Origin: [Clostridium] asparagiforme DSM 15981
GTDB taxonomy: Bacteria > Bacillota > Clostridia > Lachnospirales > Lachnospiraceae
DNA length: 64,000 nucleotides
Direction: 5' to 3'
NCBI GenBank assembly: GCA_025149125.1
Contig: CP102272.1
Location: 3,038,001 to 3,102,000, forward strand
Position 1 is the stretch's first letter; the number at the start of each line of letters is the position of its first letter. Under the pieces are notes generated by a model. That model was not told the origin of the DNA, did not search any database, and saw nothing but the letters and a program-made list of their open reading frames with translations. The translations under genes were made by a program, and so were the position numbers. Shown here in pieces: positions 1 to 13,693 of the stretch.

Positions 1-2154
1 GCGGAGAAGCTGCCCGGGGTAAAGTGTATCCTGACAGCGAAGGATTTTGAGTGGAAATCCCTGGTGGGAAACGGTGAGTTCGCGGCAGAGTTTGCGGATA
101 AGGAAGTGCTCTGCTCGGAAAAGGTACGCCAGGTTGGCGACGATATTGCTGCCGTCGCGGCGGTGGATGAAGAGACAGCCCAGAGGGCAGTGGACCTCAT
201 AAAGGTGGAGTACGAAGTGCTTCCCGGCGTGTTCGATCCGTTTGAAGCCATGGAGGACGACGCTCCCGAGGTGAACTGGGAGGGCAAGGGCATCCATAAC
301 ATCGGTATGCAGTCCGTGATGAAGGCGGGCACGGATATCGACCAGGAATTTGACAGCGCATCTTATGTGCAGCACAGGGATTATAAGACACACCGTATGG
401 TCCATGCTGCCATGGAGCCGCACGGAGCTGTAGCAACCTACCGAAATGGTACTTATACGATCTGGATGTCCACACAGATGTCCTTTGTGGATCAGTTCTG
501 GTATGCGCGCTGTTTGGGGGTGGGAGAGAACCAGGTTCGTGTGATTAAGCCGTTAGTAGGCGGAGGATTTGGCGGTAAGCTGGATTCCTACTCCTTCGGC
601 CTGTGCGCGGCCAAGATGTCCGAGATTACAGGACGCCCAGTGCGCATGATTCTGTCCCGAGAGGAAGTGTTTCAGACCACACGTAACCGCCATCCGATCT
701 ATATGCACATTGATACCGCATTCGGCGCGGACGGAAGGCTTCTGGCCAAGAAATGCTATCACGTGCTGGACGGCGGCCCTTACGGCGGTTCTGGTGTGGC
801 GGCGTGCGCGCAGTCTACGCTGTGGGCTAACTTCCCTTATAAGATGAATTCCGTGGATTTCCTGGCAAGGCGTGTGTATACCAACAACCCGTCGGCCGGA
901 GCCATGAGAGGATATACCGCATGCCAGGTGCATTTTGCCCATGACCTGAACATGCAGTTCGCTGCGGATCAGCTGGGCATGGACCCGGTGGAATTCCGCA
1001 AGATCAGCGCAGCAGACCCGGGCTATGTGGCGCCCGCCGGACTGGCCATCACCAGTTGTGCCTACAAGGAGACGCTGGATACGGCAGCCAGGGAAATTGG
1101 CTGGAATGAGAAGAAGGATAAGATGAAGAAGGGCGAAGGCATTGGCTTTGCCGGAACCGGGTTTGTGTCAGGAACCGGCTTCGCGGTGCTGGAAGCTCCC
1201 AACCAGAGCTCCGCATGCGTCACCCTTCGTATGAATAAACGTGGTATGGCGACCCTGTACATCGGTTCTCATGATATCGGCCAGGGCTCCGACACGGTTA
1301 TGACCGCTATCGTGGCAGAGGAACTGGGTCTGCCCATGAACATGGTAAAGACATTTATGTCCGATACCTTCCTGACACCCTGGGATTCCGGTTCATATGG
1401 AAGCCGCGTCACATTCCTTGCAGGCAATGCGGCCCGCCGCGCTGCCGTGGATGCCAAACGACAGCTGTTTGAGGTGATTGCTCCCATGTGGGGCGTGATG
1501 CCCGAAACCCTGGAGTGCCTGGACGGCAAGGTGATCAGCAGGGAGAACGCCCAACTTCAAATGCCCATCGGAGACGCTATGTTCAAGTACATGACCGTCA
1601 AGGGCGGGGATGAGCTGATCGGTGTGGGTTCCTACTACCACCGCACCGACAACTCCCAGTACAACGGAACCAATACCACCAACTACGCTCCTGCGTATAG
1701 CTTCTCCACTGGCGCGGCCCACCTGACCGTGGACGAGGAGACCGGCGTGCTGGATATCGACGAGTTCGTATTTGCCCATGATTGCGGCCGCGCACTGAAT
1801 AAGAGGGCTGTAGAAGGCCAGCTGGAGGGCTCCATCGGAATGGGCCTCGGATACGCGGTTTACGAACACAATGTAACGAAGGAAGGTAAGATCCTCAATC
1901 CCAACTTCCGCGATTACCGTCTGCCCACCGCTCTGGATATGCCCAAGATGCGCACGTTCTACGACTTTACGCCGGACGAGGAAGGACCGCTGGGCGCCAA
2001 GGAAGCCGGCGAAGGCTCCGCAGCGCCGGTGGCGCCGGCTATCGCCAACGCGGTTAACATGGCGACCGGAGTTTATTTTACCGAACTGCCCCTGGATCCG
2101 GAGCATATCTGGAGAGCGCTGCACGGAATGAAAGATGACAGGAACTCTAAATAA
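1..2154 (+). CDS. Xanthine dehydrogenase-family molybdopterin-binding catalytic subunit (5' partial)
   Basis: The frame is open from base 1 (717 codons seen), so the start lies before the window. This is the large molybdenum-cofactor subunit of an xanthine dehydrogenase/CO dehydrogenase-type hydroxylase, which inserts oxygen from water into a substrate C-H bond. Visible family motifs, in window numbering, are MEPHGAVA, GGGFGGK near residue 187, an MRGY loop near 302, a GQG cofactor loop near 428, and GAKEAGEGS near 665-673, whose Glu corresponds to the family's catalytic base. All key motifs are intact. There is no in-frame TGA to suggest selenocysteine. Its own Fe-S and FAD subunits may lie upstream of the window or be shared with the operon starting at 4699. 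The substrate cannot be read from the sequence; purines or related N-heterocycles are plausible. Confidence 0.93.
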   Translation, partial: AEKLPGVKCILTAKDFEWKSLVGNGEFAAEFADKEVLCSEKVRQVGDDIAAVAAVDEETAQRAVDLIKVEYEVLPGVFDPFEAMEDDAPEVNWEGKGIHNIGMQSVMKAGTDIDQEFDSASYVQHRDYKTHRMVHAAMEPHGAVATYRNGTYTIWMSTQMSFVDQFWYARCLGVGENQVRVIKPLVGGGFGGKLDSYSFGLCAAKMSEITGRPVRMILSREEVFQTTRNRHPIYMHIDTAFGADGRLLAKKCYHVLDGGPYGGSGVAACAQSTLWANFPYKMNSVDFLARRVYTNNPSAGAMRGYTACQVHFAHDLNMQFAADQLGMDPVEFRKISAADPGYVAPAGLAITSCAYKETLDTAAREIGWNEKKDKMKKGEGIGFAGTGFVSGTGFAVLEAPNQSSACVTLRMNKRGMATLYIGSHDIGQGSDTVMTAIVAEELGLPMNMVKTFMSDTFLTPWDSGSYGSRVTFLAGNAARRAAVDAKRQLFEVIAPMWGVMPETLECLDGKVISRENAQLQMPIGDAMFKYMTVKGGDELIGVGSYYHRTDNSQYNGTNTTNYAPAYSFSTGAAHLTVDEETGVLDIDEFVFAHDCGRALNKRAVEGQLEGSIGMGLGYAVYEHNVTKEGKILNPNFRDYRLPTALDMPKMRTFYDFTPDEEGPLGAKEAGEGSAAPVAPAIANAVNMATGVYFTELPLDPEHIWRALHGMKDDRNSK

Positions 2155-3556: not shown

Positions 3557-4444
3557 TCACGGATGCACGATCATCACCGTTCCCTCCAGATCGCCCACAG
3601 GCAGCATCAGCAGGGCGCCGTATCGGGCCTCCAGATCTTCCACCGCTTTTGCAACGCCCCTGTATTTCTCGTGATCACACCCGGCCAGCAGAATGACGCC
3701 CCCTCTTGTCATACGCGGAAAGAAGAATTCCAGTCCGGACAAGGTGGGGTTATAGAGGCAGGCATCCATGTAGACCAGGGCAAACGTCTCCGCCTCAATG
3801 TCAAAGGCGGTCTCGGGAAACCAGCCTTTTTTGATGATGACCTGAGCTGCGGCAGGCATACGCTCCAGAAGCTTCGCCTCATCCGCGCCGGAAAACTGGC
3901 CAGGCGATGCATCCGAACATCCCAGTTCCAGCTCTTTGGCGATATCCCTTGGATCAAATCCCTGGAATGTATCGAACAGATAGAGCTTCCGGTCCGGCAT
4001 CAGCGCGTTTAACTGCCAGGAGGTGTCACCTCGCCAGCATCCAAGTTCCGCCACATTTCCCTCCACTCCTAAACCGTCAAGTCGGCTGCAGAGACGGCGA
4101 AGGACGCCGCAGCGGATGGAAAACTGTTCATGAATATCTTTGATAAATACAATGTCATTGAGAAATCCGGCCCGGATAGCCATGTATTCCAGCGCGTGGC
4201 TTTTTTCCGCGTCCGTAGTGGCGATGACAATCATATCCGGTTGGAATCCCACTGCCAGGTCCACCGGCATTACCGGCATACCGTCGATTTTCTCTTTCAG
4301 CTCCCCCTTTTGCGGATCGGAGAATACATTCCAGGTATCCGGCCTGGTATCTCCCAGACCAATCAGTTTCATTTCCTGTGGATTTAACATCTGCGCCACA
4401 GCCATACCCAGACTGTCTGCGCCCAGAATTACAACTGTTTTCAT
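3557..4444 (-). CDS. Rossmann + TylF-type methyltransferase-like protein, paralog 1 (metal site degraded)
   Basis: Two domains: an N-terminal Rossmann fold (MKTVVILGADSLGMAV, residues 1-115), like the nucleotide-binding modules of sugar-modifying proteins, and a C-terminal TylF/MycF-like SAM methyltransferase domain (VAELGCWRGDTSW near 138; YLFDTFQGFDPRD near 165). Start ATG 4444 follows GGGGGTG; an upstream in-frame ATG has no ribosome site. In TylF enzymes a D-x-D-x-Y motif and a later DDY bind the metal. Here these read DACLY and AGC, so the metal site appears lost, unlike the paralog at 10009-10890. It is transcribed divergently from the Fe-S/Mo operon at 4699. Function unknown; it may be a non-catalytic or altered-chemistry member. 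Confidence 0.82.
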   Translation of the reverse strand: MKTVVILGADSLGMAVAQMLNPQEMKLIGLGDTRPDTWNVFSDPQKGELKEKIDGMPVMPVDLAVGFQPDMIVIATTDAEKSHALEYMAIRAGFLNDIVFIKDIHEQFSIRCGVLRRLCSRLDGLGVEGNVAELGCWRGDTSWQLNALMPDRKLYLFDTFQGFDPRDIAKELELGCSDASPGQFSGADEAKLLERMPAAAQVIIKKGWFPETAFDIEAETFALVYMDACLYNPTLSGLEFFFPRMTRGGVILLAGCDHEKYRGVAKAVEDLEARYGALLMLPVGDLEGTVMIVHP

Positions 4445-4476
4445 TTGTCCGCACCCCCTTGCTAATTTTTTAACAA

Positions 4477-4504
4477 AATATTGCGGACCGTCCGCCCCAA
4501 TATT
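4477..4504. promoter_or_regulatory. Nested dyad in the divergent intergenic region
   Basis: Inverted repeat AATATTG / CAATATT (7-bp arms, 14-bp spacer) enclosing a second dyad CGGAC-C-GTCCG. It lies 33 bp upstream of the minus-strand start at 4444 and 195 bp before the Fe-S gene. It is placed to be an operator, but does not match a standard Crp/Fnr site. Confidence 0.4.
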
Positions 4505-4698
4505 GTTACCAACAGTGTAGGGGAGAAGGCACAAAATGGCAAGTAGCGCAGGTTACACCTGATACCATATTACAAGTGTTGTCTTGATTTCACATGTGGT
4601 CTGGCATACTTAAAGATTGGAGATGTGGATGGTATGATAAAGCCATATCAACCGGCGTAACGGGGCTTGGCCGGGAATAAGAGATACAGGAGGAAACT

Positions 4699-5214
4699 AT
4701 GGACAAGGTTTCAATTCGGGTTAATGGAGTGGTGCGGACATTTATTATCGATGAAGCGGAAGGATGTGTGAAGCCGTCCGAGACGCTGGTCCACACATTG
4801 AGGGACAGACTGAACCTGACAGGCACTAAGATCGGCTGTGATCACGGGGCCTGCGGCAACTGCACCGTGATCTTAAACGGGAATCCGGTGGCGTCCTGCA
4901 TGATTCTGACTGCTGATTGCGACGGCGCGGAGGTGACCACCATCGAAGGGTTGGAAAATCAGGATACAGGTGAACTTAGCATTCTGCAACAGGCGTTCGT
5001 GGACAACTCCGCCTTCCAGTGCGGTTTCTGCACACCGGGTATTATCATGTCGGCTAAGGCGCTGCTTGATAAAAATCCGAATCCCACAAAGGATGACATC
5101 AGGGAGGCGCTGTCCGGCAACTACTGCCGCTGCATCAGCCATTACCAGGTGGAGATCGCGATTGGGGACGCCATTGGAAGAATGAAAGATTTAAGGGCAA
5201 AGGGGGAGGCATAG
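4699..5214 (+). CDS. Molybdenum hydroxylase [2Fe-2S] subunit (CoxS/XdhC-like)
   Basis: Small electron-transfer subunit carrying two [2Fe-2S] clusters between the molybdenum centre and the flavin. The plant-ferredoxin-type domain has Cys at about 47, 52, 55 and 67 (CDHGACGNC and a later Cys). The helical domain has Cys at about 108, 111, 143 and 145 (CGFC and CRC). At 171 residues it is slightly longer than the usual 155-165. Start ATG 4699 follows AGGAGG. The next gene starts one base after the stop, so the Fe-S, Mo and FAD genes form one operon. All eight cluster ligands are present, so it should be functional. Confidence 0.95.
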   Translation: MDKVSIRVNGVVRTFIIDEAEGCVKPSETLVHTLRDRLNLTGTKIGCDHGACGNCTVILNGNPVASCMILTADCDGAEVTTIEGLENQDTGELSILQQAFVDNSAFQCGFCTPGIIMSAKALLDKNPNPTKDDIREALSGNYCRCISHYQVEIAIGDAIGRMKDLRAKGEA

Positions 5215-5215
5215 T

Positions 5216-7492
5216 ATGGATGACAATAACTACAGGTACATAGGAAAGCATGTAAGCCGCGCGGACGGCAGGGATCTTGTATCGGGCCGCCGTCCGTTCA
5301 TTGACGATGTGCGCATTCCCGGGATGCTCATGGCAAGGGTTCTCAGAAGTCCGTATCCCCATGCCAATATTGTGAAGATCGATACAACAAAGGCAAAAGC
5401 CGCCCCTGGGGTCAGGGCGGTTTTGACTTACAAGGACGCTCCTGACTGGAAATGCGGCCTGCCGCAGCACAGGAAGGTGCTGGACCAACGGGTGCGCTTT
5501 ACCGGAGACAGCGTAGCCTTGGTGGCTGCGGAAACGCTGGAGGCCGCCGACGAGGCGTGCAGACAGATCGAGGTGGAGTATGAGGAGCTTCCGTTTGTCC
5601 TGGACTGCGAGGAAGCGATTAAACCGGATGCGCCCCAGCTTTACGATGAGTTCCCGGGAAATGTGCTGCCAAAGGTGACGCCCTTCTCCGAGGAGCCATT
5701 TAACCAGATCCATGTGGGCGATGTGGAGAAGGCATTTGAGGAAGCGGCCTATGTGGCGGAAGGGTATTACTGCTATGATAAACTTCCCCACCCCCTGCCA
5801 CCGGAATCCCCGGGGGTTATTGCACAGTGGACCAGCCCAAGCGCCGTAACCCTGTACTACAACGGCGGCGCGCCCCACCTTCAGAAATTCAATACCGAGG
5901 CGTCCATTCCGGGCGTAGCCGTGCGGGTGATCGCATGCCATTCCGGCGGTTCCTACGGAAGCAAGCAGCTGATTCCCCATCTGGCGCTCCAGGCTATTGC
6001 GCTGGCGCGGGAGACAGGGCGGGCCGTGAAGCTGATGATGGACCGCACCGACCATATGCTCTCCTATGAACTTCGACAAGGCAGCCGCATCCGCGGCAAG
6101 GTGGGAATTACACAGGACGGCCTCATAAACGCGATCCAGGGAATGTGGTACATTGATTCCGGCATGTCTTCCACCTATGCCCAGGCCATGACGGCGGTCG
6201 GTCTTGGAGAAGCTCAGGCATTCTGCGGCAAATGTAAGAACTGGGATCTGGAGACCATGCTGATCGCCACCAACCACAGCTCCCAGGCGCCCATCCGCGG
6301 ATTTGGCGGCCAGGAATTAAAGGGCGCCCTGATCCCTCTCGTGTGTACGGCGATCCGGGCGGCCGGGATGGATCCATATGAGGTATTTAAGAAGAACTTT
6401 GTAAAGGCCGGGGACTCCTATATCTGGCGTGATTATAAGTGGTGGGACGTGCGCTCTGTAGATTTTACCGCTGCATTTGAGGAGTCGGCCGCCCGGTTTG
6501 GCTGGAAGGATAAGTGGAAAGGCTGGGAGAAGCCAACCTGGGTCAGCGAGGACGGCAAGCGCGCCGTCGGAGTGGGAGTGGGCGTCCACGGAAATGCCGA
6601 CATCGGCGAGGACCCCACCGAGGGCTTTGTGAAGCTCCATCCATTCGGAAGCGTGACGGTGGAAATGTGTATCGGAGAGACTGGAGGCGCCCAGCGTCAT
6701 GCCATCCAGAAGATGGTGGCCGAGATCATGAAGGTGCCCTTTGACGGTGTGCAGCTGGTGAACTCCGATACCCACGGAACTGGGTATGACGCGGGTATGA
6801 TCGGCTCCAGAGGCACCATCACCATGGGAACATGCGCGGTCCGAGCGGCGAAGGACGCCAGGAGAAAGCTGCTTATGATGGCTTCCGAGAAGCTGAATAT
6901 CGACGTGGATGAGCTGGATACGGAGGACTTCCTGGTATTCCAGAGATCCAAACCGCAGATGCGCCTTCCCTGGATTGCGATCACGGGAACACCGGAGATG
7001 ACTATCACCGGCATGGGAATTTACAAACAAAATTTTGACAAGCCCAACTTTGCCTTGTATTTTGCAGAAGTGGAAGTGAATCTTGAGACGGGGGAGACGA
7101 AGCTCATACGGGCGCTGGAAGGCACGGACGTGGGCCAGATTATCGATCCAGTTAATGTGCGGATGCAGGCCGAAGGCTCTTTTGGCGCGGCAGGCGCGGA
7201 CACGGCTCTCTTTGAGGAAATGGTCATGGACAAGAAGCTGGGACGGTTTGTCAGCGGAAACATGATCGATTACAAATGGCGTACATTCAACGAATTTCCG
7301 CCCTTTGACACCGTGATACTGGAAAGCCGGTTCGACACGGAATCCTTCCACGCTCTGGGATTCGGCGAGATTAGCGGCTCACCTGCGCCCTCCGCCATCC
7401 TGATGGCTGTCTCCAACGCCATTGGCGTCGAGGTGAAGGAATATCCGACCACGCCAACCGTTGTCTTAAAAGCCATGGGAAAGATTAAATAA
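5216..7492 (+). CDS. Molybdenum hydroxylase catalytic subunit with atypical cofactor loops (758 aa)
   Basis: Second xanthine-dehydrogenase-family molybdopterin subunit of the window, preceded by GGGGGAGG. Domain order is normal: a small N-terminal ald_Xan_dh_C-like domain (about 15-120), then the molybdopterin-binding domains. Motifs are GGSYGSK near 243, IRGFGGQE near 359 and a GFGE loop near 715 that keeps the presumed catalytic Glu. Two loops differ from the first subunit and from typical members: the MEP segment reads PPESPG, and the GQG cofactor loop reads GETGGAQ. This suggests a divergent substrate or electron-transfer arrangement. Its partners are the Fe-S subunit upstream and the FAD/GltD fusion downstream. 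Confidence 0.93.
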   Translation: MDDNNYRYIGKHVSRADGRDLVSGRRPFIDDVRIPGMLMARVLRSPYPHANIVKIDTTKAKAAPGVRAVLTYKDAPDWKCGLPQHRKVLDQRVRFTGDSVALVAAETLEAADEACRQIEVEYEELPFVLDCEEAIKPDAPQLYDEFPGNVLPKVTPFSEEPFNQIHVGDVEKAFEEAAYVAEGYYCYDKLPHPLPPESPGVIAQWTSPSAVTLYYNGGAPHLQKFNTEASIPGVAVRVIACHSGGSYGSKQLIPHLALQAIALARETGRAVKLMMDRTDHMLSYELRQGSRIRGKVGITQDGLINAIQGMWYIDSGMSSTYAQAMTAVGLGEAQAFCGKCKNWDLETMLIATNHSSQAPIRGFGGQELKGALIPLVCTAIRAAGMDPYEVFKKNFVKAGDSYIWRDYKWWDVRSVDFTAAFEESAARFGWKDKWKGWEKPTWVSEDGKRAVGVGVGVHGNADIGEDPTEGFVKLHPFGSVTVEMCIGETGGAQRHAIQKMVAEIMKVPFDGVQLVNSDTHGTGYDAGMIGSRGTITMGTCAVRAAKDARRKLLMMASEKLNIDVDELDTEDFLVFQRSKPQMRLPWIAITGTPEMTITGMGIYKQNFDKPNFALYFAEVEVNLETGETKLIRALEGTDVGQIIDPVNVRMQAEGSFGAAGADTALFEEMVMDKKLGRFVSGNMIDYKWRTFNEFPPFDTVILESRFDTESFHALGFGEISGSPAPSAILMAVSNAIGVEVKEYPTTPTVVLKAMGKIK

Positions 7493-7513
7493 ATAGAGAG
7501 GAAGGTGAGCCAC

Positions 7514-9946
7514 ATGAAACAATTTGAACATGTAAATGCCGCCAGCTTTGAGGAAGCCGGAAGGATATTAAAGGAATCAGGGGGAACGGCCCAGGCCATG
7601 GCCGGAGGTTCCGACCTGCTTGGAACATATAAGGACAATTTGTTAAAAACATATCCCGAAACCGTAGTCAACTTAAAAAAAATCCCGGGATTCGCGGCGC
7701 TTGAGGAAGAGGACGGCTGCCTGAAGGTTGGCGCCGGATGTAAACTGAACACGATCGCGCAGAACCAGGCCGTGCAGGAAGCCTGTCCCGCGCTGGCGGA
7801 GGCCGCCTATTCAGTTGCCTCTCCGCTGATCCGCTCTATTGGTACCATCGGCGGCAATATCTGCCAGGACGTGCGTTGCTGGTATTACCGATATCCTGAT
7901 TCCATGGGAGGGGCCATGGACTGCAAGCGCAAGGGCGGCGGGACCTGTTATGCCATCAACGGTGAGAACCGATACCATTCCGTATTTGGCGGCATGAGCT
8001 GCCACGGCACACCATGCGCCAAATCCTGCCCGGCAGGAACCGATGTGCCCGCCTACATGGCAAAGCTGCGGGAAGGGAAATGGGACGAGGCCGCAGAAAT
8101 TATCATGCGTTATAATCCCATGCCCATGATGACCTCCCGCATCTGCCCTCACCCGTGTCAAGATGACTGCAACCAGTGTACCTACGGGGACAGCGTTAAT
8201 GTCCACGGCGTAGAGCGCTCTCTTGGGGATTATATTCTGGAGCACGCGGACCGGTATTACTGCGCGCCTGAGCGCGAAACAGGAAAGCGCGCCGCCATAA
8301 TCGGCGCAGGCCCCGGCGGTCTGTCCGCAGCCTATTATCTGAGAAAAGCAGGCCACAGCGTGGTGGTTTATGACCGCATGGAGAAAGCAGGCGGCGTTCT
8401 GCGGTACGGTATTCCACATTACCGTCTGCCCAAGGACATGGTAGACGCCTATGTGAATGCGCTTTCTGCCATGGGTGTAAACTTCAGGCTGGGCGTTCAG
8501 GTGGGACAGGACATTACAGTGGAGGAGATACAACAAAGCTCCGACAGCATGTATGTGGGAACCGGCGCCTGGAAGCAGCCGGTGCTGGGACTGGAAGGAG
8601 AAAATCTTACGCAATTCGGCCTGGATTTCCTGACCCAGGTCAATATATACCTGGAGAAATCCATTGGAAACAAGGTGTTGGTATGCGGTGGCGGCAACGT
8701 GGCAATGGACGTGGCCCTGACGGCCGTCCGCCTGGGAGCAGGGCAGGTAAAGTTGGTATGCCTGGAACAGGAACATGATATGCCTGCCGCTTCCGAGGAG
8801 ATTGCAAGGGCCAGAGAAGAGGGGGTTGAGATCTGCAACGGCTGGGGGCTTGGACGCATCGTCACCGATGAGAACGGAAGAGTGGCCGGCCTGGAAGCGA
8901 AGCGATGCCTGGCCGTGTTTGATGAGGAGCACCGTTTCTCACCTGTGTATGATGAAGCCGACCGGATTGTGTTGGAAGCGGATACCATCATCCTTGCCAC
9001 AGGCCAGCGGGTGGACCTAAGCTTCCTGGGCGAACACTTTGGAGGGCAGCTAAAATCAGCCAGGGGACTGATTGACGCGGACACGGAGTCATTTAAGACA
9101 AAGAAGGACGGCGTTTATGCGGGCGGCGATGCGGTTACAGGGCCGGATATTGCCATCCGGGCCATACTGGCGGGCCGCGTGGCGGCAGCGGGAATGAACC
9201 GGGACCTGGGAGGCTGTGGGGAATGCGGCTGTGAGAAGGCCGGTTGCGAGGAAATCGGCCGGGAGAATCCATCTGCGGATGGGAATCCCCAGGAGGCAGC
9301 ATTTCTCCGCTTTGACCCCGGAGCAGTGGAAAACACTGAATCCCATAAGCTTAAGGAGATTCCCGCAAGCGAGCGCACTCTGATAAAAGAGGACGCTTCA
9401 TCCTTTGACCGGGAGACGGCCATGGCGGAAGCCGGACGGTGTATGAACTGCGGCTGTTATGCGGTCAGCCCGTCGGATATCAGCCCGGTGCTGGTGATGG
9501 CGGGGGCGGATATTGTCACCACAGAGCGGACCCTGACGGCAGAAGAGCTGTTTACAAAGAAACTGACGGTTCAGGATATTCTGACCCCGGGTGAATTGGT
9601 AAAGGAGATCCGGGTGCCGAAGCGGTCCGGCCAGATGCATTATGACAAGAAGCGTGTGAGAAATGCCATTGACTTTGCCATTGTATCCCTGGCGTCCTGC
9701 CTGGACGTTAAGGATAATGTGATACAGGACGCCCGCCTGGTATTCGGCGGTGTGGCCCCGGTGCCCCTTCGCGTGAAACACGTAGAGGAATTTTTAAAGG
9801 GAAAAGCGGTAACAGAGGAAACGGCGGATCAGGCGGCCGGACTGGCTGTCGGTGGTGCCAGTCCCATGGGCAAGAATGAATATAAGCTGTTTATGATGAA
9901 GGATCTGATGCGAAGCGCCGTTTTAAGGGCGGGACGCAGCAGCTAA
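7514..9946 (+). CDS. FAD subunit of molybdenum hydroxylase with an inserted GltD-like Fe-S/NAD(P) oxidoreductase (810 aa)
   Basis: A nested fusion. Residues 1-160 are the N-terminal part of a CoxM/YgfM-type FAD-binding subunit (AGGSDLLG; TIGGNICQDVRCWYYRYP; RYHSVFGG). Residues 161-645 are a GltD/YgfK-like module: Cys-rich Fe-S segment (CAKSCPAGTDVPAY; CPHPCQDDC), FAD motif GAGPGG near 263, NAD(P) motif GGGNVAMD near 390, GGDAVTG near 535, then Cys clusters CGECGC near 566 and CMNCGC near 642. The CoxM domain resumes at CYAVSPSDISP and runs to the end with its C-terminal domain. Start ATG 7514 has AGGTGA six bases upstream. In E. coli the corresponding parts, YgfK and YgfM, are separate genes in the xdhD cluster. 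It probably links NAD(P)(H) or another carrier to the hydroxylase. It is the last gene of the operon. Confidence 0.92.
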   Translation: MKQFEHVNAASFEEAGRILKESGGTAQAMAGGSDLLGTYKDNLLKTYPETVVNLKKIPGFAALEEEDGCLKVGAGCKLNTIAQNQAVQEACPALAEAAYSVASPLIRSIGTIGGNICQDVRCWYYRYPDSMGGAMDCKRKGGGTCYAINGENRYHSVFGGMSCHGTPCAKSCPAGTDVPAYMAKLREGKWDEAAEIIMRYNPMPMMTSRICPHPCQDDCNQCTYGDSVNVHGVERSLGDYILEHADRYYCAPERETGKRAAIIGAGPGGLSAAYYLRKAGHSVVVYDRMEKAGGVLRYGIPHYRLPKDMVDAYVNALSAMGVNFRLGVQVGQDITVEEIQQSSDSMYVGTGAWKQPVLGLEGENLTQFGLDFLTQVNIYLEKSIGNKVLVCGGGNVAMDVALTAVRLGAGQVKLVCLEQEHDMPAASEEIARAREEGVEICNGWGLGRIVTDENGRVAGLEAKRCLAVFDEEHRFSPVYDEADRIVLEADTIILATGQRVDLSFLGEHFGGQLKSARGLIDADTESFKTKKDGVYAGGDAVTGPDIAIRAILAGRVAAAGMNRDLGGCGECGCEKAGCEEIGRENPSADGNPQEAAFLRFDPGAVENTESHKLKEIPASERTLIKEDASSFDRETAMAEAGRCMNCGCYAVSPSDISPVLVMAGADIVTTERTLTAEELFTKKLTVQDILTPGELVKEIRVPKRSGQMHYDKKRVRNAIDFAIVSLASCLDVKDNVIQDARLVFGGVAPVPLRVKHVEEFLKGKAVTEETADQAAGLAVGGASPMGKNEYKLFMMKDLMRSAVLRAGRSS

Positions 9947-10008: not shown

Positions 10009-10890
10009 TTAAGGCCTGACGATAACCGCGCTTCCGTGCAGATCGCACAGGGGAACCAGAATCAGCCGGTGATGGCGTTTCTCATAGTCCGCCACCGCCT
10101 GTCTTGCGCCGCGGAAGCGCTCATTGTTATAATCGTGCATCAGAATCATTGCGCCTGGGGACAGGCGGGGATAGAAGTATTCAAGTCCTGCCAAGAGCGG
10201 GGCATAGAGATCCGCGTCCAGGCTCACCAGGGCGTAAGTCTCGGATTCCAGCCCGGATGCGGTTCCGGGGAAATATCCCTCCCGCACCACGGCCCGGTCC
10301 GGGAATGGAAGCCGGTTTAAAACCGCCTGCTTACTGGTATCGGAGAAATCCCCCTTTTTTGCGCGGGAACATCCATACGCTTCTTCTTTTTCAATATCTC
10401 TCGGATCAAATCCCTCAAAGGTGTCGAACAGATACAGAAACCTGTCTGGAAACAGGGCATTGAGCTTCCATGCCATATCGCCCCTGTAAACGCCAAGCTC
10501 CGCAATCTGTCCGGGTATCCCCTGCTCATGAAGCCGCGCGGCGATCTGCCTCAATGTGGCGCTGCGTATGTCAAAGTGCCGGTAGAGCTCCCCAAGGCAT
10601 ATAAAATCACCCTGAAAGCCCAGAGAGCGGGCCTGGTCCATGAGCTGTCCGGTTCTGGAACCATCCGTGACGCCGGTAAGGATATAGTCAGGTCTTATGG
10701 AGACAGCCTGTGCCACCGGCAGCACAGGAACATGGGCAGGGAATCCCATGCCGATTTTTTCTGTTTCGCTCATATGGTGAAGGCCGGTGTTATTGTCACC
10801 AAATCCAACCAATCGCAGTTCTTCCGTATTGATCAGCCTGGACACGGCGCGCCCGAACTGTCCGGCTCCTAATATTACAACTGTTTTCAT
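10009..10890 (-). CDS. Rossmann + TylF-type methyltransferase-like protein, paralog 2
   Basis: Paralog of the gene at 3557-4444, with the same layout: an N-terminal Rossmann module (MKTVVILGAGQFGRAV) and a C-terminal TylF-like methyltransferase domain (IAELGVYRGDMAW; YLFDTFEGFDPRDIEKEEAYG). The metal-site segment LDADLY is intact, and the second segment reads HDYNN where TylF has DDY, so this copy could be active. Start ATG 10890 matches the paralog's start; a longer upstream frame exists but is AT-rich and lacks a ribosome site. TylF enzymes O-methylate sugars, but the substrate here is unknown. It converges on the molybdenum operon and diverges from the Crp/Fnr gene at 11120. Confidence 0.85.
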   Translation of the reverse strand: MKTVVILGAGQFGRAVSRLINTEELRLVGFGDNNTGLHHMSETEKIGMGFPAHVPVLPVAQAVSIRPDYILTGVTDGSRTGQLMDQARSLGFQGDFICLGELYRHFDIRSATLRQIAARLHEQGIPGQIAELGVYRGDMAWKLNALFPDRFLYLFDTFEGFDPRDIEKEEAYGCSRAKKGDFSDTSKQAVLNRLPFPDRAVVREGYFPGTASGLESETYALVSLDADLYAPLLAGLEYFYPRLSPGAMILMHDYNNERFRGARQAVADYEKRHHRLILVPLCDLHGSAVIVRP

Positions 10891-10975
10891 CAACGAATCC
10901 TCATATTTCGTGAATATATATTTTATTATCATACCACACAGCCCTGTTCCATAAAAGGTGAAAATGCAACGGATA

Positions 10976-10996
10976 TAACATTTACAACAGATGTTA
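10976..10996. promoter_or_regulatory. Dyad in the divergent region before the Crp/Fnr gene
   Basis: Inverted repeat TAACAT-N9-ATGTTA, followed by a TATAAT box a few bases downstream (about 11004). The position between two divergent genes, one a regulator, suggests an operator, possibly autoregulatory. Confidence 0.4.
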
Positions 10997-11119
10997 AAAT
11001 TTGATATAATGTAGCATATACTACTGGCTGTTAAAAACATAACGGTGTTATAATTTTATTATAAGTAATAGGGGATCATCTGGGAACATTTTGGTAAAGA
11101 TTCATAAAATGGAGGGGTT

Positions 11120-11869
11120 ATGGGGAGTCGGGGATCAAATACTGTGGAAAGTCCGTTGTTTGACCAATCGGAAAAAGACGCTGTGCAGATGCCGCATGCG
11201 AATTTTGTTTCGCGTCTTTTATATCTTCCGAGAGGCATATCCAGATTAGAAAAGCTGGGACAGAGAAAAGTATATCCCAAGAACTATATGTTAGTCCAGG
11301 CGGGAATCAGGCCAAGCTACTGTTATATCGTGAAGAAGGGCAGGGTGGCTGCTTTTGAAACTACGGTTACCGGGGAGGAGCGCATCTATAACTTTAACGA
11401 GAGCAATTCCATCCTTTTGGAGGGGAATGTTCTGTTTGACCAGGAATCTGCGGTCAACTTTAAGACGGTACTGCCATCGGAGCTGATCCTGATAACGAAG
11501 GAGATGCTGCTGGAGGGCATTTCCAGGGATCCGCAGTTATCCATGGATATTATGGAATCCCTTTCTACCAAGTTCCTGTCATCCATGGAACAGATCCGCC
11601 ACAGTAATTTTCACAATGCCGCATGGAAGATCTGCGATCTGCTTCTTATATTTGCGGAGCATTACGGCGTGCCCTATGACGGCAAGATCCTGATCAAGGA
11701 GAAGATCAGCCAGCAGCTTCTTTCCAATTTGCTGGGCATCAACCGGGTGACGGCGGTGCGGGCGATCAAGGAGTTAAAGGAGATGGCTCTGATCGAACAG
11801 ATCAACGGATATTACTGTATCAGAAGCCTGGAACAGTTAAAGCGCCATCAGGAGAGGATTTGCCAGTAA
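11120..11869 (+). CDS. Crp/Fnr-family transcriptional regulator
   Basis: An N-terminal cyclic-nucleotide-binding-like beta barrel (about residues 40-150) is followed by a C-terminal winged helix (about 165-235) with recognition segment LSNLLGINRVTAVRAIKELKE. No Cys cluster of the FNR type is seen in the N-terminus, so oxygen sensing through Fe-S is unlikely. Start ATG 11120 has GGAGGGG upstream. It sits between the molybdenum hydroxylase operon and the MobA-like gene, so it is a good candidate for local regulator; that is inferred from position only. It ends at a strong terminator. Confidence 0.9.
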   Translation: MGSRGSNTVESPLFDQSEKDAVQMPHANFVSRLLYLPRGISRLEKLGQRKVYPKNYMLVQAGIRPSYCYIVKKGRVAAFETTVTGEERIYNFNESNSILLEGNVLFDQESAVNFKTVLPSELILITKEMLLEGISRDPQLSMDIMESLSTKFLSSMEQIRHSNFHNAAWKICDLLLIFAEHYGVPYDGKILIKEKISQQLLSNLLGINRVTAVRAIKELKEMALIEQINGYYCIRSLEQLKRHQERICQ

Positions 11870-11881
11870 GAAGCTTTATTG

Positions 11882-11915
11882 CGACTGCTGCACGTTTCGT
11901 GCAGCAGTCGTTTTG
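11882..11915 (+). terminator. Rho-independent terminator after the Crp/Fnr gene
   Basis: Perfect 13-bp stem (CGACTGCTGCACG and its complement) with a TTT loop, followed by TTTTGTTT. Confidence 0.96.
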
Positions 11916-11997
11916 TTTCCTTAAAGTGTAATCCACACTACTTATTTTCCTACCACGCCCCTGTTATAATTAAAACATCATGAAAGCGGGTGATTGG

Positions 11998-12609
11998 ATG
12001 AAGAAAACAGGTGCCGTGCTGGCAGCGGCGGGACTTTCCTCCAGAATGGGTGATTTTAAGCCCATGCTGCCATTTGGGGATTCCACGATTGCGCTGCATA
12101 TGGTTAACATGTTAAAGCGTATGAGCGTAGAGCCGATTGTGGTGGTGACCGGTTACCGGGCGGAGGAACTGGAGCGTCATCTTACCCATACCGGCGTCCG
12201 GTTTGTGAGGAATGACCGGTTCGGGGAAACACAGATGTTTGATTCGGTGAAGATGGGGGTCCGAGCGATTCTTTCTGACTGCGAGCGGATTATGGTGATG
12301 CCCCTGGATACGCCGGCTATCCTGCCGGAGACCATCCGCCAGGTGCTGACGATCGATGCCGGGATCGTGCGGACCATGTGCGGAGGGGAACCGGGGCATC
12401 CCATCATGTTCTGGCGGGAGACGGCAGAGCAGCTGTGCTCCTACACGGGGGACGGCGGACTGCGGGGCGCCATCGAGGCGTACGGCGCGGGCGTTACGGA
12501 TCTGGCGGTAAAGGACGAAGGAATCTACCGCGATGTGGATACGAAGGAAGAGTATAAAAAGCTGATCGAGTGGAGCTACAGGCGGGAAATGGGCGCGATT
12601 CCTGTCTGA
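11998..12609 (+). CDS. MobA-like molybdenum cofactor nucleotidyltransferase (MocA/YgfJ type)
   Basis: NTP-transferase fold with the signature LAAAGLSSRMGDFKPMLPFG at the N-terminus and a metal-binding D in MPLDTP near 101. Family members (MocA, YgfJ) attach CMP or a similar nucleotide to molybdopterin, making the cofactor form used by xanthine-dehydrogenase-type enzymes. This matches the neighbouring genes. I chose ATG 11998 because GGGTGAT precedes it; ATG 11980 has no ribosome site. A TATAAT box at 11965-11970 suggests transcription begins just upstream. The protein is about 203 residues, normal for the family, and the next gene follows after 13 bases. Confidence 0.88.
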   Translation: MKKTGAVLAAAGLSSRMGDFKPMLPFGDSTIALHMVNMLKRMSVEPIVVVTGYRAEELERHLTHTGVRFVRNDRFGETQMFDSVKMGVRAILSDCERIMVMPLDTPAILPETIRQVLTIDAGIVRTMCGGEPGHPIMFWRETAEQLCSYTGDGGLRGAIEAYGAGVTDLAVKDEGIYRDVDTKEEYKKLIEWSYRREMGAIPV

Positions 12610-12622
12610 CGGAGGATGTAGT

Positions 12623-13693
12623 ATGAGAACGGTGTATCTGGTGAGACATGGAATGGTGGAATTTCCGGAGGGTAAGAAGCGGTGTATTGGCCGCACGGAT
12701 CTTCCTTTAAATCATATCGGTATCCGCCAGGCTGAGGATCTGGGGGATTACTTTCGCGGCCGTCCTGTGGAGGCTGTGTTTTGTAGTCCGCTGAAGCGAT
12801 CCGTGCAGACAGCCGGGATCCTGGCGGGCGGAAGGCTTCCTGTGCTTAAGCGGCAGGGACTGGCAGAGCTGGATATGGGGGAGTGGGAAAACGTTCCTCT
12901 CTGCGACCTTAAAAAGGATCTGGAGTCAGAACCGTTGCACGGGGAAGGGAGGGAGCATGGGAGATGGCGCATGGATCGCGCCATCCGGGATATCCTGTCC
13001 CAAACGACAGGGGATGTAGTGGTGGTTGCCCATGCAGGGATCAACTGCAGCTATCTGGCCGGTCTGATGGGCCGTCCCCTGGAGACATCCAGAGCTTTAA
13101 GCCAGCCCTATGGAGGCTTCAGCCGGATTATGATAGACGACCGGGGAGTTGTCTTTGCCGCTGACTTCGGCAGAAAGCCCAGAATATATCCGGAGGACCG
13201 GGAATGCCGTGATATTTGGGACCGCTATGGGACGCCGGAGCACGTAAGGAGCCACTGCATAGCCGTGGCGCACCAAGCAGTCCGTCTTGGCATCGCGCTT
13301 TCGGACGCGGGCTGCAGGATTGATTTAGGGCTGATCCGAAGCGCAGCTCTTCTCCATGACGTGGTCAGGGATCGAAAGGATCATGCCGCGGAGGGCGCAA
13401 AGGTTTTGATGAGAGAGGGATACCCGCTCTTAGCCGAGATTATCCGCTGCCATCACGACCTGGAGCACGAAATTTTAAATGAAACCGCCGTGGTTTATCT
13501 GGCGGATAAGCGGACCCAGGGACAGCGGGAAGTGTCCCTGGATGAGCGGTTTGACAGAAGCCGGGCCAAATGCCAGGGAAACCCGGAGGCTATGGCCGCC
13601 CACGAACGCAGGTACCGGCAGGCCAAGGCTATCGAAACCATGGCGAGGGAGTGCCAAAGAACCGCCGGCCGGATGACCACGCTGACCGGATAA
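12623..13693 (+). CDS. Histidine phosphatase-HD domain fusion protein
   Basis: The N-terminal half (1-190) is a phosphoglycerate-mutase-like histidine phosphatase with the RHG motif (YLVRHGMVEFPEG) and a second His in VVVVAHAGINCSY. The C-terminal half (about 205-345) is an HD-type phosphohydrolase domain (HCIAVAH; LLHDVVRDRKDHA; IIRCHHDLEH). Both active-site sets look intact. It is 13 bases behind the MobA-like gene, with GGAGG before the ATG, so the two are co-transcribed. Such a pair would fit removing phosphate from nucleotides or cofactor precursors, but the substrate is unknown. The HD domain also resembles those of nucleotide hydrolases. Confidence 0.85.
   Translation: MRTVYLVRHGMVEFPEGKKRCIGRTDLPLNHIGIRQAEDLGDYFRGRPVEAVFCSPLKRSVQTAGILAGGRLPVLKRQGLAELDMGEWENVPLCDLKKDLESEPLHGEGREHGRWRMDRAIRDILSQTTGDVVVVAHAGINCSYLAGLMGRPLETSRALSQPYGGFSRIMIDDRGVVFAADFGRKPRIYPEDRECRDIWDRYGTPEHVRSHCIAVAHQAVRLGIALSDAGCRIDLGLIRSAALLHDVVRDRKDHAAEGAKVLMREGYPLLAEIIRCHHDLEHEILNETAVVYLADKRTQGQREVSLDERFDRSRAKCQGNPEAMAAHERRYRQAKAIETMARECQRTAGRMTTLTG

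Follow-up and report, generated by a model that had tools for sequence, protein, structure and literature searches.

The [4Fe-4S] cluster held in a loop of the flavin adenine dinucleotide (FAD) subunit of 4-hydroxybenzoyl-coenzyme A reductase (4-HBCR) is the electron entry point of that enzyme. The electrons come from ferredoxin (PMC12771579). GltD-like modules, which a review lists for GltS, DPD, Nfn, and AegA, pass electrons from reduced nicotinamide adenine dinucleotides (NAD(P)H) to a partner by way of [4Fe-4S] clusters (PMC8097209). Both elements occur in one gene of [Clostridium] asparagiforme DSM 15981. At positions 7514..9946 of a 64,000-nucleotide window (the whole stretch analyzed; contig CP102272.1, positions 3,038,001 to 3,102,000), a GltD-type module lies inside the FAD subunit of a molybdenum hydroxylase. 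The operon and the parts of the fused gene are as follows.

4699..5214, + strand: CoxS-type subunit with two [2Fe-2S] clusters (Fer2_2, 4.7e-28)
5216..7492, + strand: CoxL-type molybdenum cofactor (Moco) subunit (MoCoBD_1, MoCoBD_2, Ald_Xan_dh_C)
7514..9946, + strand: fused FAD/Fe-S subunit, 810 amino acids (aa), ATG start with the stretch GAGGAAGG upstream
7514..7993, + strand: N-terminal half, CoxM/HcrB-type FAD domain (residues 1–160), with loop residues Cys122, Cys137, and Cys145
7994..9454, + strand: inserted GltD-type module (residues 161–647; 487 residues)
7994..8245, + strand: Fer4_20 domain with the presumed ligands of two GltD-type [4Fe-4S] clusters (C168, C172, C211, C215, C219, E234)
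8288..9172, + strand: putative FAD/NAD(H) two-Rossmann domain (Pyr_redox_2), Glu418 codon at 8765–8767
9209..9403, + strand: variable linker (residues 566–630, from the alignment) with nonconserved Cys568–578; predicted local distance difference test score (pLDDT) <50 at 568–595
9437..9457, + strand: junction motif RCMNCGC (residues 642–648), Cys in 35/35 fused proteins
9455..9943, + strand: C-terminal half of the FAD subunit (residues 648–810), PF03450 at 65.3 bits, aligning from 1RM6_B residue 154

Positions 7514–9943 translate as a single stop-free frame of 810 residues, with a GTG 9 bases upstream of the ATG as an alternative start. The opposite strand has several stops in the frame read, and its longest frame wholly inside the gene is 373 aa. 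Pfam domains follow in the order FAD_binding_5 (best stretch 3–118), Fer4_20 (161–244), Pyr_redox_2 (259–553), and CO_deh_flav_C (715–805), which, with the alignments below, bears out the insertion proposed in a preliminary description of this DNA. Scored over the whole protein, the two outer domains reach 99 bits (PF00941, cut-off 27) and 65.3 bits (PF03450, cut-off 25.5). The fused protein belongs with the CoxM/XdhB-type FAD subunits of the xanthine oxidase (XO) family, and genes for [2Fe-2S] and Moco subunits precede its own in the order coxS-coxL-fused gene. Gaps to the next ATG are 1 and 21 bases, and a purine-rich stretch precedes all three starts. This S-L-M order was found again at fused loci with informative flanks. 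The best PDB match of the CoxL-type subunit is 8uem_A, followed by 7dqx_A and 1rm6_A.

The insertion site could be placed exactly. Residues 28–160 align with residues 29–161 of 1RM6_B, the beta subunit of 4-HBCR (HcrB), in a phmmer search against solved structures; since the C-terminal half also aligns to 1RM6_B at this point, the two halves meet inside the extra [4Fe-4S] loop of HcrB. The insertion falls between the third and fourth cysteine of this loop, which is typical of 4-HBCR. Alignment with five unfused sister subunits shows that the insert, between GG160 and C648, replaces two residues: the empty site in sister L116 reads NRYHAIMGG-KK-CFAVCPSD, and the window reads NRYHSVFGG-[487 residues]-CYAVSPSD. 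The break points given in the preliminary description, after RYHSVFGG and at CYAVSPSDISP, are therefore exact, and its insert of about 485 residues stands as a module with the length corrected to 487. In a subunit alignment of 45 rows (35 fused, the window's included, and 10 unfused), the loop cysteines C122, C137, C145, and C648 are present in 45/45. They align with HcrB-type cysteines, where C122, C138, C146, and C155 are presumably the cluster ligands. The protein nevertheless scores 138.5 bits on the HcrB equivalog model TIGR03195, below its cut-off of 404.55. Within the window's own genome, the Cys loop occurs in 3/3 fused and 0/6 unfused FAD subunits. G31, G32, G114, and N115, which we take to bind FAD, are invariant in 33/33 aligned proteins.

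The insert itself scores 74.5 bits for Fer4_20 and 96.3 bits for Pyr_redox_2, and contains the two-cluster Cys set of a GltD-like module. Among solved structures, its best matches are 9bov_A (NfnABC, 1.7e-87), 9n5u_A, and 8oh5_C (StnC). Residues C168, C172, C211, C215, C219, and E234 are kept in 35/35 fused proteins, and E234, counted along the alignment, falls on E126 of 5jca_L (NfnL), a residue described as a ligand of the proximal cluster (PMC9503767). Domains and conserved residues thus support two flavin sites and several Fe-S clusters in one chain, as had been proposed.

At its exit, the module meets the host loop in the motif RC643-xx-C646-x-C648, which appears to serve the outer cluster of the insert and the loop cluster of the host together. 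The ligand sets of the DPD and NfnL clusters provide the analogy by which C643 and C646 are assigned here to the distal (outer) cluster, and C648 to the loop cluster. C646 and C648 would then bind different clusters at a spacing of two residues, which should allow electrons to pass between the clusters. The location of RCxxC differs among relatives. In 9/9 stand-alone proteins of the GltD/NfnL type it lies near the N-terminus; in L011–L021, YgfK, 9bov, 8oh5, and the fused proteins it follows the module. A phmmer piece that finds the motif in the N-terminal residues 7–43 of 4ylf_B is very weak alone (3.8 bits), and the nine stand-alone proteins are the basis for the N-terminal location. Of the further Cys clusters seen earlier at the exit, C643, C646, and C648 hold (35/35), whereas C568–C578 are unconserved and lie in the variable, low-confidence linker. 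A further cluster at C568–578 was rejected because close relatives have other or no cysteines there.

Several proteins show variants of these parts. The nearest unfused GltD-type modules found, also with a CLE motif, are in proteins of ~900 aa (L011, L012, L013, L014, and L018), where the module sits behind an N-terminal part of ~350 residues that includes a 4Fe-4S domain in L011. Beside the fused gene at L079, a shortened 558-aa paralog (6148–7821, −) keeps the junction RCLNCGC and, judged by eye, is without the second, nucleotide-binding Rossmann part. The fused protein at L078 (2191–4905, −) has ~100 extra residues, partly glycine-/alanine-rich, between the GltD part and the junction.

We searched genomes for the fusion at increasing taxonomic distance. 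The genus yielded 16 full-length fused genes without internal stops in 10/17 genomes, including three in the window's own genome. In the same draw, full-length fused genes were found in 0/20 family-level and 0/24 order-level genomes, judged by the best match of each genome. Fused frames occurred in 2/295 genomes of the order and 4/398 of the phylum, with the window's own genome counted in both. A search of genome contigs gave 25 fused loci, with residues 1–800 or more covered in 20; named examples include [Clostridium] citroniae, Caproicibacter fermentans, Acetobacterium tundrae, and Coriobacteriales bins. The 35 aligned proteins come from Bacillota and one Actinomycetota bin and are part of the full-length fused genes, as the genus-level draw holds further full-length matches. 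Full-length second copies (L002, L003, L008, L010, L067, L069, L070, and L071), full-length genes resembling included rows (L006, L007, and L040), and partial genes (L050, L051, L053, L054, and L055) were left out of the alignment. The insertion thus recurs elsewhere and is not always resolved into separate genes.

A comparison of the N-terminal piece with 398 Bacillota genomes identified five close unfused subunits in four genomes (48–51% identity). At 4/5 of these loci, coxS and coxL precede in the same order, and L116 showed the FAD subunit alone. A GltD-like frame was found at 0/5 (E 1e-4, 15–16 kb read). Fused rows group as a single clade in both trees, that of the host subunit (97/93; the five unfused sisters adjoin it) and that of the insert (100/100), so a single insertion followed by spread would most simply account for both. 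The insert is under purifying selection: its ratio of nonsynonymous to synonymous substitution rates (dN/dS) is 0.056–0.116 (8 pairs), like that of the flanks (0.034–0.139 where unsaturated), with synonymous sites near saturation in most. An assembly join or frameshift would be the trivial explanation of such a gene and has next to no likelihood given 35 different fused proteins from many assemblies, with open frames, one clade, and purifying selection. It was rejected, and the one-frame fusion is real.

Where the second Rossmann strand ends, 35/35 fused proteins have a glutamate (E418), within CLE in 34/35 and ALE in 1/35. At the same position, 21 unfused GltD-type proteins have YRR (15/21) or CLE (6/21). 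Two Escherichia coli proteins served as controls: GltD, an NADPH enzyme, has YRR, and PreT, which carries the annotation NAD(+)-dependent, reads ARE, with Glu in the E418 column. The 5JCA entry, NADP(H)-bound by its title, has YRR. Because Glu418 replaces the Arg of YRR, as in PreT, we infer that the nucleotide of the insert is NAD(H) rather than NADP(H). NADPH, put forward in the preliminary description, was accordingly rejected as the first choice.

The fused gene probably encodes the electron-input subunit of an NADH-linked three-subunit XO-family enzyme (CoxS-CoxL-CoxM, of the HcrB/PaoB kind) working as a linear wire, with the reductive direction favored. An NAD(H)-oxidizing GltD-type module would have been taken into the surface [4Fe-4S] loop of an HcrB/PaoB-kind FAD subunit. 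Electrons would run from NADH to the insert FAD, to the proximal cluster (C172, C211, C215, E234), to the distal cluster (C168, C219, C643, C646), and to the loop cluster (C122, C137, C145, C648), and then through the host FAD and the two [2Fe-2S] clusters of CoxS to molybdenum. A direct electron link between the two flavin parts, as first proposed, is likely, given an insertion within the cluster loop and conserved junction cysteines. The built-in module would take the place of ferredoxin as donor to the loop cluster in 4-HBCR, and the link to NADH is proposed because the module stands where ferredoxin would feed that cluster. The favored reaction would be the dehydroxylation of an aromatic or acyl-CoA-type substrate with regeneration of NAD+. 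Such a role would suit a fermenting anaerobe, and the NADH-driven urolithin C dehydroxylase (Ucdh) is a precedent.

Clues to the substrate come from neighboring genes. CoA ligases adjoin 3/5 unfused sisters (L115, L118, and L119) and 2/34 fused loci (L081 and L082, with a CoA transferase and a major facilitator superfamily transporter), many fused loci being short-flanked. Their position beside these five loci suggests that some members of the group carry out chemistry on CoA thioesters. B12-binding and URO-D-type genes 1–3 kb from the Acetobacterium tundrae copy are a weak lead. The fused gene at L049 has a second coxS-coxL pair behind it (10292–13443). As no FAD subunit of its own was recognized for this pair in the stretch read, two Mo subunits may share one fused subunit there.

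Several observations weigh against an NADH-fed, reductive enzyme. The Cys loop does not fix the direction, because oxidative PaoB-type aldehyde oxidoreductases share it, and no biochemistry of any fused member was found. Glu418 is not special to the fusion, since 6/21 unfused GltD-type proteins also have CLE, and the motif rule is not strict, as YgfK has YRR yet was assayed with NADH (PMC12507026). The predicted model has pLDDT <50 at residues 127–132 of the Cys loop, and the scanned part of the window copy's neighbors has no CoA ligase, transporter, or catabolic gene. The host and insert trees also conflict inside the fused clade: the L052/L068/L076/L077/L078 group is basal in the host tree and nested in the insert tree, where L074/L075/L080 are basal. 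We cannot say whether rooting, weak support, or exchange is responsible.

The same wire could run in reverse, as an NAD+-linked hydroxylase or dehydrogenase in which the Mo site oxidizes the substrate and the insert reduces NAD+. This is the most serious rival, although clearly less probable than the reductive enzyme. Its premise, a guess, is that NAD+ cannot be reduced directly at the host FAD because of the Cys loop. Among the folds closest to the host part are the aldehyde oxidoreductase subunits 5y6q_B and PaoB (5g5g_B), whose loop is the same; the putative FAD-binding residues G31, G32, G114, and N115 are invariant (33/33); and xanthine oxidation with NAD+ is described as thermodynamically favored (PMC8097209). 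On the other hand, the CoA ligases beside three sister loci and one fused subclade look more like 4-HBCR-type chemistry. Ordinary xanthine dehydrogenase, moreover, reduces NAD+ without any insert.

The insert FAD could instead split the electrons of NADH between reductive dehydroxylation at the Mo site and ferredoxin (bifurcation or confurcation). The fermenting anaerobe would in that case draw low-potential electrons from the removal of an aromatic hydroxyl group. Homology to the NfnL module, which bifurcates, speaks for this, as does a Glu at the proximal-ligand position E126 of NfnL (PMC9503767). Bifurcation, also raised in the preliminary description, finds no support beyond this cofactor homology and is improbable: every recognized cluster fits one line, and no NfnS, EtfAB, or HydBC partner was present among the neighbors scanned, with no genome-wide search for an NfnS-type partner. 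E. coli GltD, which is not known to bifurcate, shares the Glu at the E234 position. In the near relative StnC, the FAD is reported to be non-bifurcating (PMC10482914). It is at least as doubtful that the insert is a separate activity or structural part, electronically uncoupled from the Mo site; poor prediction of the linker at 568–595 would allow this, but the insertion lies exactly within the cluster loop and its three junction cysteines are kept in 35/35.

The remaining neighbors of the window copy include two features of possible relevance to the operon.

11120..11869, + strand: CRP/FNR-type regulator, seen again near several window-clade loci
11980..12609, + strand: MobA/MocA-like nucleotidyl transferase, possibly in Moco maturation (PF12804; TIGR03310 at 124.7 bits, below the cut-off of 186.45)

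At 11980–13693, the two parts of the NF045665 family, a nucleotidyl transferase and an HD domain, seem to be split: the transferase has a gene to itself, and the next gene combines the HD part with a histidine-phosphatase domain. The operon lies between two TylF-type methyltransferase paralogs of 43% identity that are encoded on the opposite strand (3557–4534 and 10009–11040, −), and such genes were found again at many window-clade loci. This TylF-type pair, the regulator, the MobA-like gene, and the phosphatase gave no substrate lead. Just upstream is a second molybdenum enzyme in M-S-L order (window 64–2154; L072 8419–12151), consisting of a 288-aa FAD subunit without the Cys loop, a [2Fe-2S] subunit, and a 787-aa Mo subunit. 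The 696 aa of this Mo subunit that lie in the window reach 555 bits on the 4-HBCR alpha model, whose cut-off is 994.55.

Known systems share one part or the other with the fusion. The E. coli XdhD cluster has both domain kinds, as YgfK and YgfM, and had been taken as the parallel. The two genes are separated by ssnA, and neither product is a close relative of the fusion parts: the insert scores 245.7 bits on the YgfK model (TIGR03315, equivalog cut-off 835.3) and is nearest to NfnABC and StnC, and YgfM (259 aa) is without the Cys loop. YgfK, with its YRR motif, is described as a reductase of its own that acts on the product of XdhD-YgfM (PMC12507026). These differences, with the insert tree, led us to reject YgfK and YgfM as parents, and the parallel fails. 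NfnABC subunit A (9bov, 9n5u) and StnC (8oh5) resemble the insert in having a GltD-type module with a C-terminal RCxxCGC within a larger electron-transfer complex, but differ in an NADP(H)-type YRR motif and a Lys at the E234 position. Unlike the window fusion, StnC is joined to NuoG-like domains (PMC10482914). NfnL/NfnB, GltD, and PreT share two [4Fe-4S] clusters and FAD and NAD(P)H sites with the insert. NfnL and GltD also have Glu at the E234 position, where PreT has Gln, and PreT has Glu at the E418 position. NfnL/NfnB has the NADP(H)-type YRR in place of CLE/ALE, and stand-alone proteins of the GltD/NfnL type place RCxxC near the N-terminus instead of at a C-terminal junction.

The fusion is described in no paper found in the open literature, a search to which supplements and subscription papers are external; the domains appear as separate proteins in PMC6637259 and PMC9045290. 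Ucdh of Enterocloster bolteae, probably a related genus, is likewise an XO-family enzyme with NADH as donor, and is described as having a medium subunit with one FAD (PMC12771579; compared by description only). If that subunit proved to be of the fused kind, the architecture would already have been described. Genomes have up to three fused copies, with Mo subunits ~94% down to ~27% identical to the window's, and for this reason the fused enzymes may be behind reductive reactions of anaerobes that have yet to be described.

PaoB-type FAD subunits (5g5g_B, 5y6q_B) have the FAD fold and Cys loop of the fusion, but they are without the insert and their enzymes oxidize aldehydes. HcrB (1RM6_B, TIGR03195) shares the FAD fold, the four-Cys [4Fe-4S] loop, and the CoxS- and CoxL-type partners, but has no insert and a ferredoxin donor. 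Compared with HcrB, the fusion would represent a one-step route from a ferredoxin-fed enzyme class to an NADH-linked one, in which a whole NADH dehydrogenase module is put inside the cluster loop and neighboring junction residues serve two clusters. Fused proteins and their unfused sisters make the question of the donor, ferredoxin as in 4-HBCR or NADH, directly testable.
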